In this document: positions 4,265 through 7,623 of the stretch, one piece after another
Numbering within the stretch: the stretch's first letter is position 1
How the letters are laid out: every line of letters begins with the position of its first letter
Source: Leptolyngbyaceae cyanobacterium T60_A2020_046
Lineage (GTDB): Bacteria; Cyanobacteriota; Cyanobacteriia; Phormidesmidales; Phormidesmidaceae
Direction of reading: 5' to 3'
Assembly: GCA_015272155.1 (NCBI GenBank)
Contig: JACYME010000008.1
Location: 1-56,066 of the forward strand
Length of the DNA stretch: 56,066 nt
The notes under the pieces: model-generated
The model's database searches: none
Told to the model about the DNA's origin: nothing
Seen by the model: only the letters and a program-made list of their open reading frames with translations
Program-made: the position numbers and the translations under genes

Positions 4265-4689
4265 TCTCCAAGCTTCAAAGATCTGGCAAGGGACAGAGAG
4301 GTCGCAAATCTCGGGGATGGGAGGTTAAGAAATATCGGCGCGATCAGACGATTTCTAGCCGAATTTAACGTTCTGTATCCCAATCTGGCAGGGATTTCTG
4401 TTCGCCATCCAGCCCTGCTTAACCCAGCATTAACCGTCTACGCGCTGGTTTAGAAAGGGGTTCAGCGATTGTACGCGCAGGTTGCAGGCGGAGGAGCGAT
4501 CGCTCGACACCGCGATCTCACCCCTGCCTGCAACCTGATGTTTTCAATCATGAAACACCCCAGCAGCCTCGGGGTTCAAAAACACAGTTGTCGATTTTGG
4601 CGAGATTCACTACTTTAGCTGAAAACCTGTCCTCACTGTGAGGGCAGGGTTTGCTGTCATTTGATACGCCAGCCAGGAGTCTAGTCAGA
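4265..4689. other. structured intergenic region upstream of the sugar phosphorylase
   Basis: A 425-base non-coding stretch rich in inverted repeats: a 12-bp perfect pair at 4478-4489/4526-4537 whose loop holds a 12-bp palindrome at 4494-4505, a 5-bp stem around 4557-4574, and an imperfect 10-bp hairpin at 4626-4648. It probably carries the 3' end of the flavoprotein transcript and the leader of the phosphorylase gene. I see no gene here. Confidence 0.55.
4478..4537. repeat. 12-bp inverted repeat with internal palindrome (cruciform-like)
   Basis: Arms caggttgcaggc (4478-4489) and gcctgcaacctg (4526-4537) are perfect reverse complements. The 36-base loop contains the palindrome gagcgatcgctc (4494-4505), which embeds a HIP1 octamer. 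There is no U-tract after either arm, so it is not an obvious intrinsic terminator. Confidence 0.75.
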
Positions 4690-6492
4690 ATGGTCGTCGC
4701 TTCCCATGAAAAGTTTGCAGTTTTCTCGGCTCGGGTGCGGCCACTGTTATCCATCATCTATCCGACTGAGGTCTTAGAGGACTTAATCCAACAGCTCTTT
4801 GATCTCGTGTTGCCCCACCTCCAACAGGCGAGCCGCGAAAATCTACGCAAATGGAGCCACGACAATATCCTCGTTATTACCTACGGAGATAGCTTGATTA
4901 GCAAAGACACGCGATCGCCCCTCTCCGTCCTCGCAGACTTTTTGGAACGATACTTAAAAGACACAGTCACTGGCGTTCATATCCTGCCCTTTTTTCCCTA
5001 CAGCTCCGATGACGGGTTTGCCATTATTGACTATACCCAAGTCAATCCAGAGCTGGGAAATTGGGATGAAATTAAACGCATCGCCCACAGCTTCAACCTC
5101 ATGGTTGACTTGGTGGTCAATCACATTTCAAGCCAACACATCTGGGTCAAACAATTTCAAGCTGGGGAACAACCAGGCTGCAACTATTTGATTGAAGTCA
5201 ACGCTGAGGAAAGCGATCTTTCAGAGGTGGTTCGCCCGCGTAGTTCGCCATTGCTGACGCCGTTAGAAACTGTTCATGGCCCCAAGTCAGTCTGGTCAAC
5301 CTTCAGTGCCGACCAAATTGATGTGAACTTTGAGAACCCCAATGTCTTGCTTGAATATGTCAAGATAATTCTCTTTTACATCAACGCTGGAGCCCGCTAT
5401 ATCCGCCTTGATGCCGTCGGCTTTTTGTGGAAGAAACCGGGCACTCGCTGCATTCATTTGCCTGAGACCCACGCCATTGTGCGCCTCTTTCGTGAGCTGC
5501 TGCAAATGATCGACCCTGGCATTGCGATTATCACCGAAACCAATGTTCCAAATCGCGAAAACCTGAGCTATTTCGGCAATCGAAACGAAGCTCACATGAT
5601 CTACAACTTTAGCTTGCCGCCACTGTTGCTCAATGCGCTGATGCAGGGTCGCTCTGACCACCTCAAAACCTGGATGATGAGTATGCCACCTGCACCAATT
5701 GGGTGCGCCTACTTCAACTTCACCGCTTCCCATGATGGCATTGGCATGCGTCCCGCAGAAGGGCTCTTGACCCATGACGAATATGAGGCATTACTTGACA
5801 CCATGAAACGGTTTGGGGGACGCATTAGTATGCGTCGTCACCCCGATGGTAGTGAGTCCCCCTATGAGATCAATATTTCACTGTTTGATGCGATGAAAGG
5901 GACGGTTGAGGGCGAAGATGACTGGCAGATTGAGCGTTTTCTCTGTTCTCAAACCATCATGATGGCGCTAGAAGGAATTCCCGCATTTTACATTCACAGT
6001 CTGCTGGCAACCCACAACGATGAAGAAGGGGTAAAGCGCACAGGGCACAATCGCACGATTAATCGCTATAAGTGGGATATTGATGCGTTGGAAGCGACGT
6101 TATCAGACCCACAGTCACCTCACTCGGTCGTGTTGGCAGAACTCTGTCGCCTGATCAAAATTCGACGGCGACAACGGGCATTTCATCCCAATGCGACGCA
6201 GTACACCTTACATCCATTGAATTCATCCTTGTTTGCATTTTGGCGGCAAAGTATGGCTCGGGATCAAAGCATTTTTTCAATCCATAATCTCAGCAAGCAC
6301 CCACAGGAATTTCGCTTGTCTGATCTCAATCTTGTGAGCACAGACGAATGGACAGATTTGATTAGTGGCGATCGCTTTCATTCCCTGACTGAGGTGTATC
6401 AACTCCGGCCCTATCAATCCCTTTGGATTACGAATAAAGTCGATTCGGCAACGGATCTCTCTACCCCTGATCCGCTTTTGGGTGAGCCCTAA
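4690..6492 (+). CDS. GH13_18 sugar phosphorylase (sucrose / glucosylglycerate phosphorylase-like)
   Basis: A glycoside hydrolase family 13 subfamily 18 phosphorylase, releasing glucose 1-phosphate from a glucoside plus phosphate. From ATG 4690 (600 residues) the nucleophile Asp lies in RLDAVGF (about residue 241), the acid/base Glu in ITETNVP (about 283) and the transition-state Asp in TASHDGIGMRP (about 349). The N-terminal strand ILVITYGDSL matches the family's TYADRL element. The protein is about 100 residues longer than bifidobacterial sucrose phosphorylase, and the acceptor-loop segment reads YEINISLFDAM rather than the YQVNCTYYDAL-type of true sucrose phosphorylases, so glucosylglycerate or glucosylglycerol phosphorylase is possible. 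I chose ATG 4690 because AGGAG lies 10 bases upstream; an in-frame start at 4651 has none. Family certain, substrate not. Confidence 0.88.
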   Translation: MVVASHEKFAVFSARVRPLLSIIYPTEVLEDLIQQLFDLVLPHLQQASRENLRKWSHDNILVITYGDSLISKDTRSPLSVLADFLERYLKDTVTGVHILPFFPYSSDDGFAIIDYTQVNPELGNWDEIKRIAHSFNLMVDLVVNHISSQHIWVKQFQAGEQPGCNYLIEVNAEESDLSEVVRPRSSPLLTPLETVHGPKSVWSTFSADQIDVNFENPNVLLEYVKIILFYINAGARYIRLDAVGFLWKKPGTRCIHLPETHAIVRLFRELLQMIDPGIAIITETNVPNRENLSYFGNRNEAHMIYNFSLPPLLLNALMQGRSDHLKTWMMSMPPAPIGCAYFNFTASHDGIGMRPAEGLLTHDEYEALLDTMKRFGGRISMRRHPDGSESPYEINISLFDAMKGTVEGEDDWQIERFLCSQTIMMALEGIPAFYIHSLLATHNDEEGVKRTGHNRTINRYKWDIDALEATLSDPQSPHSVVLAELCRLIKIRRRQRAFHPNATQYTLHPLNSSLFAFWRQSMARDQSIFSIHNLSKHPQEFRLSDLNLVSTDEWTDLISGDRFHSLTEVYQLRPYQSLWITNKVDSATDLSTPDPLLGEP

Positions 6493-6567
6493 CTCAGATC
6501 AGTTCAGATCAATCGAGGGATTTTCGCTTGATCGCACCGTGCAATCTCTACCACTGCCCCCCTAAAA

Positions 6568-6755
6568 GCGGTAGGATCTTGGTGGTGCAGAAAAGTCCTG
6601 AAACCCTTGTAGATAAAGGATTCTCAACGAAACAGCGAATTTGGGATTTCTCGACGACTTGAACGAAGGCAGTGGGTTTCAGCCGCTATTTTGGCCATCT
6701 GGACTGTCCACTATGAGACTCGAAAAAGTTTTCTGCACCACTAAGGCGGTAGGGT
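6568..6755. mobile_element. MITE-like element (168 bp) with 17-bp TIRs and 10-bp target duplication
   Basis: The element spans 6578-6745. Its ends, read inward, are CTTGGTGGTGCAGAAAA (6578-6594) and, on the other strand, CTTAGTGGTGCAGAAAA (6729-6745): 16 of 17 bases identical as terminal inverted repeats. Directly outside lie gcggtaggat (6568-6577) and gcggtagggt (6746-6755), 9 of 10 identical, the layout expected of a target-site duplication. Inside there is a further 9-bp inverted pair (ctgaaaccc 6598-6606, gggtttcag 6674-6682) and no reading frame of note. This is a non-autonomous miniature transposable element by structure; the mobilising transposase is not in the window. It lies between the phosphorylase gene and leuD. 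Confidence 0.72.
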
Positions 6756-6760
6756 AGTAT
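6729..6760 (+). promoter_or_regulatory. possible leuD promoter spanning the element's right end
   Basis: TAGTAT (6755-6760) is a fair -10 hexamer, with a weak -35-like TTCTGC (6731-6736) 18 bases upstream, inside the right inverted repeat of the inserted element. The leuD start follows 37 bases downstream of the -10. If real, the -35 half is supplied by the insertion. No experimental or comparative support is available. Confidence 0.3.
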
Positions 6761-6796
6761 ACCGTGCAGGTTACATCAATTAAGTTGAGCAAGGTC

Positions 6797-7390
6797 ATGA
6801 CACAGGTAAAAACCGTTGCTGGGCGAGGGATTCCACTTAAGGGTGATGATATCGATACCGATCGCATCATTCCCGCGCGTTTTTTGCGGTGCGTCACCTT
6901 TGATGGCCTTGGCGAGCAGGTTTTTGCAGACGACCGCGCCCAACTGGAGGGGGCACACCCCTTTGATCAGCCTCAGTACCAAGGGGCTCAGGTGCTGGTG
7001 GTAAACCGCAACTTTGGTTGTGGCTCCTCTCGCGAACATGCCCCGCAGGCGATCGCGCGCTGGGGCATTCAAGCGCTGGTCGGTGAAAGTTTTGCAGAGA
7101 TTTTCTTTGGGAATTGTGTGGCGATGGGGGTTCCCTGTGTCACGGTGACAACGGAAGGTGCACAGGCGCTTCAGGATGCGATCGCAGTGAATCCACAGCA
7201 GATCGTCACGGTGGATCTCAACACCATGACCGTGACCTGTGGCGACCTGACCGTGCCCGCCACAATGGGGGATGGCCCCCGGCAAATGTTCCTGGATGGG
7301 AACTGGGATGCCTGCGGTCAGTTGGTAGCTCAAGCTGAGGATATTAAGGCTACGGCGGCAAACCTGCCCTACTTTGCTTGGTCTGCATAG
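6797..7390 (+). CDS. leuD: 3-isopropylmalate dehydratase small subunit
   Basis: Small (swivelling-domain) subunit of isopropylmalate isomerase, second step of leucine biosynthesis; it pairs with LeuC, which is not in this window. The 197-residue protein has the family hallmarks [15 protein letters not shown] near the start and [14 protein letters not shown], the loop that contacts substrate in the LeuC active site. Length matches standalone LeuD. ATG 6797 is preferred because it gives the usual MTQVKT-type start; an in-frame start at 6764 adds 11 unrelated residues. It is a single gene here, 36 bases after the MITE-like element, so its expression may depend on that insertion. Confidence 0.93.
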
Positions 7391-7486
7391 GGGGTTGTCC
7401 AGCGCCTAAATTGAGAATGGGGTTGTGGAAGGTTCCAGATTCAATTGAGCGGCGACTAGAAGACGACCAACCCATGATGAAAGAGG

Positions 7487-7550
7487 AACCCGGTTTCTCT
7501 TCGGCAATTTGCCTCATCTCGTGAATCCGCCCTTGAAGAAACTGGGTTTT
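7487..7550. repeat. interspersed hairpin repeat (aacccggtttct / agaaactgggtt)
   Basis: Left arm aacccggtttct (7487-7498) and right arm agaaactgggtt (7537-7548) pair over 11 of 12 bases, with flanks rich in GAAGAA and TTTTTCG. Arms of this kind (AGAAACCGGGTTTCT) are known to me as short dispersed repeats in many cyanobacterial intergenic regions. The 230-base gap between leuD and the TPR gene holds nothing else visible. Confidence 0.55.
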
Positions 7551-7623
7551 TCGTCACCCGATATCGGTGCTTTCGCCCAAGTCGTGGCAACTGGTATCGC
7601 TCCGTCTGGTTCGGTTCGTGGCG

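Follow-up and report, generated by a model that had tools for sequence, protein, structure and literature searches.

leuD, the gene for the small subunit of 3-isopropylmalate dehydratase, lies on the + strand at 6797–7390 of the window, which is the whole 56,066-nucleotide stretch of Leptolyngbyaceae cyanobacterium T60_A2020_046 that was analyzed. The gene has an alternative GTG start at 6764, and homologs occur in 36 of 39 relatives. Its upstream neighbor at 4651–6492 (+ strand), which we take to be a sucrose-phosphorylase/amylosucrase-like gene, precedes leuD in the same gene order in several relatives.

Between the two genes lies a 168-bp segment (6578–6745) without a coding frame of note, which is absent from the same gene order in those relatives. 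The segment is bounded by terminal inverted repeats (TIRs) at 6578–6594 (CTTGGTGGTGCAGAAAA, + strand) and 6729–6745 (− strand, reading TTTTCTGCACCACTAAG on the + strand), which pair at 16 of 17 bases. Directly outside of the TIRs are two 10-bp direct repeats on the + strand that are identical at nine of ten bases, GCGGTAGGAT at 6568–6577 and GCGGTAGGGT at 6746–6755. Inside of the element, a perfect 9-bp inverted pair is formed by 6598–6606 (CTGAAACCC), whose sequence is conserved without compensatory changes, and 6674–6682 (GGGTTTCAG), both given for the + strand. Together with the TIRs, this inner pair gives rise to a long hairpin. Length, TIRs, direct repeats, internal pair, and the lack of a coding frame agree in every detail with an earlier note on this DNA. 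A scan of the whole 56-kb window for elements of 60–400 bp with TIRs matching at 16 or more of 17 bases found one, 6578–6745, which also has the 9/10 direct repeat; the same scan on five first-order Markov shuffles of the window found none.

A dispersed family of short elements

The segment 6578–6745 is a non-autonomous mobile element (MITE) that belongs to a dispersed cyanobacterial family. Three MITE matches are found in its own genome (G000), which include further 168-bp copies at C134:17819–17986 (duplication ATTCAACCGT/ATTCAACCGC) and C235:38916–39083. Matches at E ≤ 1e-8 are present in 25 of 65 genomes of the same family. The best of these is 93% identical over 168 of 168 bases, and one genome (G060) carries three copies at 90% identity. 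The number of matches rises to six each in G061 and G062, eight in G006, and nine in G048. Full-length matches with 75–80% identity were also found in four genomes of three other families within a 386-genome sample of the phylum. Among plasmids, the single find was a remnant of the right end, 43 bp long, in Leptolyngbya sp. BL0902. A literature search for the TIR sequence led to one paper, which deals with a human gene and is unrelated.

The target duplications were compared across 47 distinct copies of 150–185 bp, most of which are exactly 168 bp long. Perfect 10-bp duplications flank 22 of the 47, and the flanking 10-mers are identical at eight or more of ten positions in 28 (chance 0.0004 each). 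Four further copies have 9-bp duplications, and no duplication is seen at 15. At the other tested lengths (6–8 and 11–13 bp) flank identity is about 25%, which is the chance level. The target preference is weak, with G at position 1 and C at position 10. Copies with different flanking 10-bp repeats, which the earlier note had expected for a mobile element, are present at unrelated sites. The family thereby displays the properties of a MITE: a length below about 600 bp without a transposase gene, TIRs shared with an insertion sequence (IS), duplications of constant length, and dispersed copies.

The alternative that the segment is a structured leader or riboswitch-like RNA, conserved before leuD for regulation, is extremely improbable. 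The + strand of the element does fold better than shuffled sequences (z of −3.5 as RNA and −2.3 as DNA), which is explained by the inverted ends. Against this reading, copies sit at many unrelated sites, the element is found upstream of leuD in no relative examined, and an Rfam match is lacking. Two-sided compensatory changes occur in none of 37 consensus pairs, so selection on an RNA structure is not supported. The pattern by which the earlier note would have recognized a leader, a single copy conserved upstream of leuD, was looked for and not observed. A structured leader was therefore rejected as the primary identity of the segment; a leader role acquired by the element after its arrival is possible.

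Two of the copies have unusual surroundings. When the flanks of the C134 copy (L002 1506–1673) are joined, they give a stop-free frame of 402 codons, which indicates that this copy may interrupt a gene. On contig C1112 of G006 (L039 213–322 and 415–590), a shorter 110-bp form with the same ends lies beside a 176-bp MITE copy, and the sequences on the outer sides of the two agree at eight of nine bases, as if both had moved as one unit.

The partner insertion sequence and its transposase

A full IS with the same 17-bp ends, which the earlier note had proposed to look for, is present in the MITE's own genome. At C209, two matches mark the borders of a 1304-bp element with these ends (L008 1209–2512, equal to G000:C209:4708–6011); no other full-length copy of the IS was found in that genome. 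The transposase frame of the C209 copy is broken by one in-frame TAG, a premature stop in the N-terminal part, and no target duplication was found around it. Mobility within this genome is therefore doubtful, and the MITE probably does not move there at present. A second match at C157 is a broken and more distant relative of the IS with 33% identity. Intact 1304-bp copies occur in G008. Two of these have perfect 10-bp duplications, CCCTAGACCC in one case and GGGCGACATC in the other, while the duplication at another copy is 9 bp long. A 1306-bp copy in G061 is flanked by the perfect 10-bp duplication GCTAGATGGC. The 17-bp ends of the IS are identical or nearly identical to those of the MITE.

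The transposase is encoded by a single ORF of 385 amino acids. The truncated own-genome ORF matches Pfam DDE_Tnp_1 (E 1e-8) and scores 110.9 bits with NCBIfam IS4_2, below the cut-off of 152. D101, D164, and E265 are invariant in nine transposases with spacers of 62 and 100 residues, as are Y257, R260, E265, and K272, which are spaced as Y(2)R(4)E(6)K. A single TGA recurred in the transposase matches and looked odd, but it was not taken for a real stop: the query started 12 codons upstream of the true ATG, the TGA of L008 is located in this leader, and most copies are open from the ATG onward. Searched by sequence, solved structures gave none for the transposase. A predicted model (mean pLDDT 75.4) has Tn5 transposase as its best structural match (Z 16.9 over 325 residues, rmsd 5.0), followed by piggyBac as the next kind (Z 11.3).

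In the published definition of the IS4 family (PMC2266710), the transposase has D(60-110)D(100-150)E as well as Y(2)R(3)E(6)K and is encoded by a single ORF, and the duplication spans about one helical turn. The partner IS resembles the IS10/IS50 side of this family (De Palmenaer et al. 2008, PMC2266710) in its single-ORF DDE transposase with D(62)D(100)E, its Y-R-E-K residues, its duplication of about one helical turn, its 5′-CT ends, and its length of 1304 bp. It deviates in the YREK spacing, which is 2-4-6 compared to 2-3-6 in the family, while it agrees with the other points of the definition. Its duplication is mostly 10 bp, compared to 9 bp in IS10 and 8–9 bp in IS50. Within the family, the IS10 subgroup is characterized by 5′-CT ends, 1200–1350 bp, and a 9-bp duplication; the partner IS has CT ends, 1304 bp, and mostly 10-bp with few 9-bp duplications. 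Judged from its sequence, the transposase is of the DDE/IS4 type, and in the model it appears closest to Tn5 transposase. The DDE-type origin that the earlier note had read from the 10-bp duplication can thus be given a family.

The likeness between MITE and IS extends well past the TIRs. MITE positions 1–50 (6578–6627, + strand) match the IS at about 82% over 49–50 bp of its left end, which is the 5′ and transposase-proximal one, and positions 137–168 (6714–6745, + strand) match the right end at 91% over 32 bp. These shared ends and the equal duplication length suggest transposition in trans by this IS, which is the likely mobilizer of the MITE. The MITE would be cut and pasted by the IS4-family, Tn5-like DDE transposase of the 1304-bp IS with the same ends.

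The 86-bp core between the two segments (positions 51–136; 6628–6713, + strand) has no match in any IS copy. A search with the core alone in the 65 genomes led only to places inside of MITE copies and to no core-only places. Leftover IS sequence was rejected on these grounds as the source of the core, and the sampled IS does not yield the MITE by simple loss of its interior. It is quite improbable that selection has preserved the core for an independent function, such as that of an RNA hairpin or a protein site; if it were functional, the leuD insertion and others like it would act as portable regulatory cassettes. The missing core could also indicate that the MITE is moved by a different transposase than the IS4-type enzyme described above, as could the presence of MITEs in some genomes, such as G048, without a transposase match at E ≤ 1e-60. 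Such a transposase is very improbable, as the ends match the IS over 32–50 bp, the 10-bp (and some 9-bp) duplications are the same, and MITE and IS transposase are found together in G000, G004, G016, G060, G061, and G062. At G008:C4 (L036 336–1407), a related IS has lost internal sequence, which leaves a 1072-bp derivative with a fused frame of 303 codons. This derivative is possibly an intermediate between IS and MITE.

The element resembles the prokaryotic IS-derived MITEs (review PMC10969869) in being short and non-coding, in its IS-shared TIRs and target duplication, and in its several copies per genome. It differs in that 86 of its 168 bp are not found in the IS and that its length stays near 168 bp in different genera and families. 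The MITE/IS pair has not been described so far, but it is of a known kind, and the element is an ordinary new member of that kind of mobile DNA. To the IS4-type, Tn5-like elements known from cyanobacteria it adds a defined combination of MITE and IS whose 10-bp duplications are clean. Nezha (Zhou et al. 2008, as cited in PMC10969869) is reportedly a cyanobacterial MITE as well, a likeness by description.

The target site upstream of leuD

The element is absent upstream of leuD in 29 loci from relatives and in 80 named loci (109 in total, with partly overlapping sets). In four genomes (G022, which matches Oscillatoria sp. CS-180 by sequence, G001, G008, and G014), the same upstream gene lies shortly before leuD without the element. 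The sample includes no relative of the same genus, so these empty sites come from other genera. The left repeat GCGGTAGGAT is found verbatim 67–72 bp before the leuD start in two of 21 element-free family relatives (L052, L063) and in Limnothrix sp. CACIAM 69d (L175), which provides the empty sites that the earlier note had foreseen. Several relatives carry either GCGGTAGGAT or GCG[AG]TA[TG][GC]AT 40–72 bp before leuD. The looser pattern G[CG][GA][GA]TAnnAT occurs at 40–72 bp in seven of the 21 family relatives, compared to 0.4 expected in shuffles, is missing in the other 14, and is not found in a control region further upstream. The search for the target 10-mer itself had been suggested in advance by the earlier note; the looser pattern was drawn after the sequences had been seen, so its enrichment is indicative.

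The TAGGAT or TATGAT within these motifs at 40–72 bp resembles a −10 hexamer. The position of this motif in element-free relatives suggests that the insertion target was probably the leuD −10 box, which is now duplicated. The left copy of the duplication would be ancestral and the right copy, which reads TAGGGT, mutated. Taken together, the data are best explained by a MITE that was moved by an IS4-type, Tn5-like IS and inserted into the putative leuD −10 region, and this explanation is held with high confidence. Other copies, empty sites, and a full IS with the same ends speak for the MITE reading of the earlier note. On this reading, the insertion would have struck the ancestral leuD promoter in its −10 region and doubled that region. 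A −10-like box would then flank the MITE at either end, leuD would have been cut off from the sequence that originally preceded it, and a single base of the right-hand copy would have changed afterwards. The locus thereby offers a specific and testable case of a mini-transposon that lands in, and duplicates, the putative −10 region of a leucine-synthesis gene.

An effect on leuD expression, in which the insertion drives or tunes the gene through a promoter that combines the duplicated −10 box with the end of the MITE, is compatible with this explanation but rather doubtful. It is favored by the location of the insertion at the position of the relatives' −10-like motif and by the TAGTAT at 6755–6760. 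This hexamer overlaps TAGGGT at 6750–6755, and both are candidate −10 hexamers (+ strand) by the TAnnAT motif positions in relatives, without a consensus −35. It is disfavored by the adjacent TIR, which is nearly invariant across the family, as transposition requires, and is thus not adapted to leuD. No sigma-70-like consensus promoter was detected in 6480–6830 either, which leaves the proposal of the earlier note that the right end of the MITE supplies the leuD −35 region unsupported. The likeness of the target site itself to the leuD −10 box is the connection with better support.

Downstream of leuD, a second and unrelated dispersed repeat is located at 7483–7560. It is about 67 bp long (AACCCGGTTTCT ... 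GAAACTGGGTTTTT), has palindromic ends, and gives 28 matches in the same genome.
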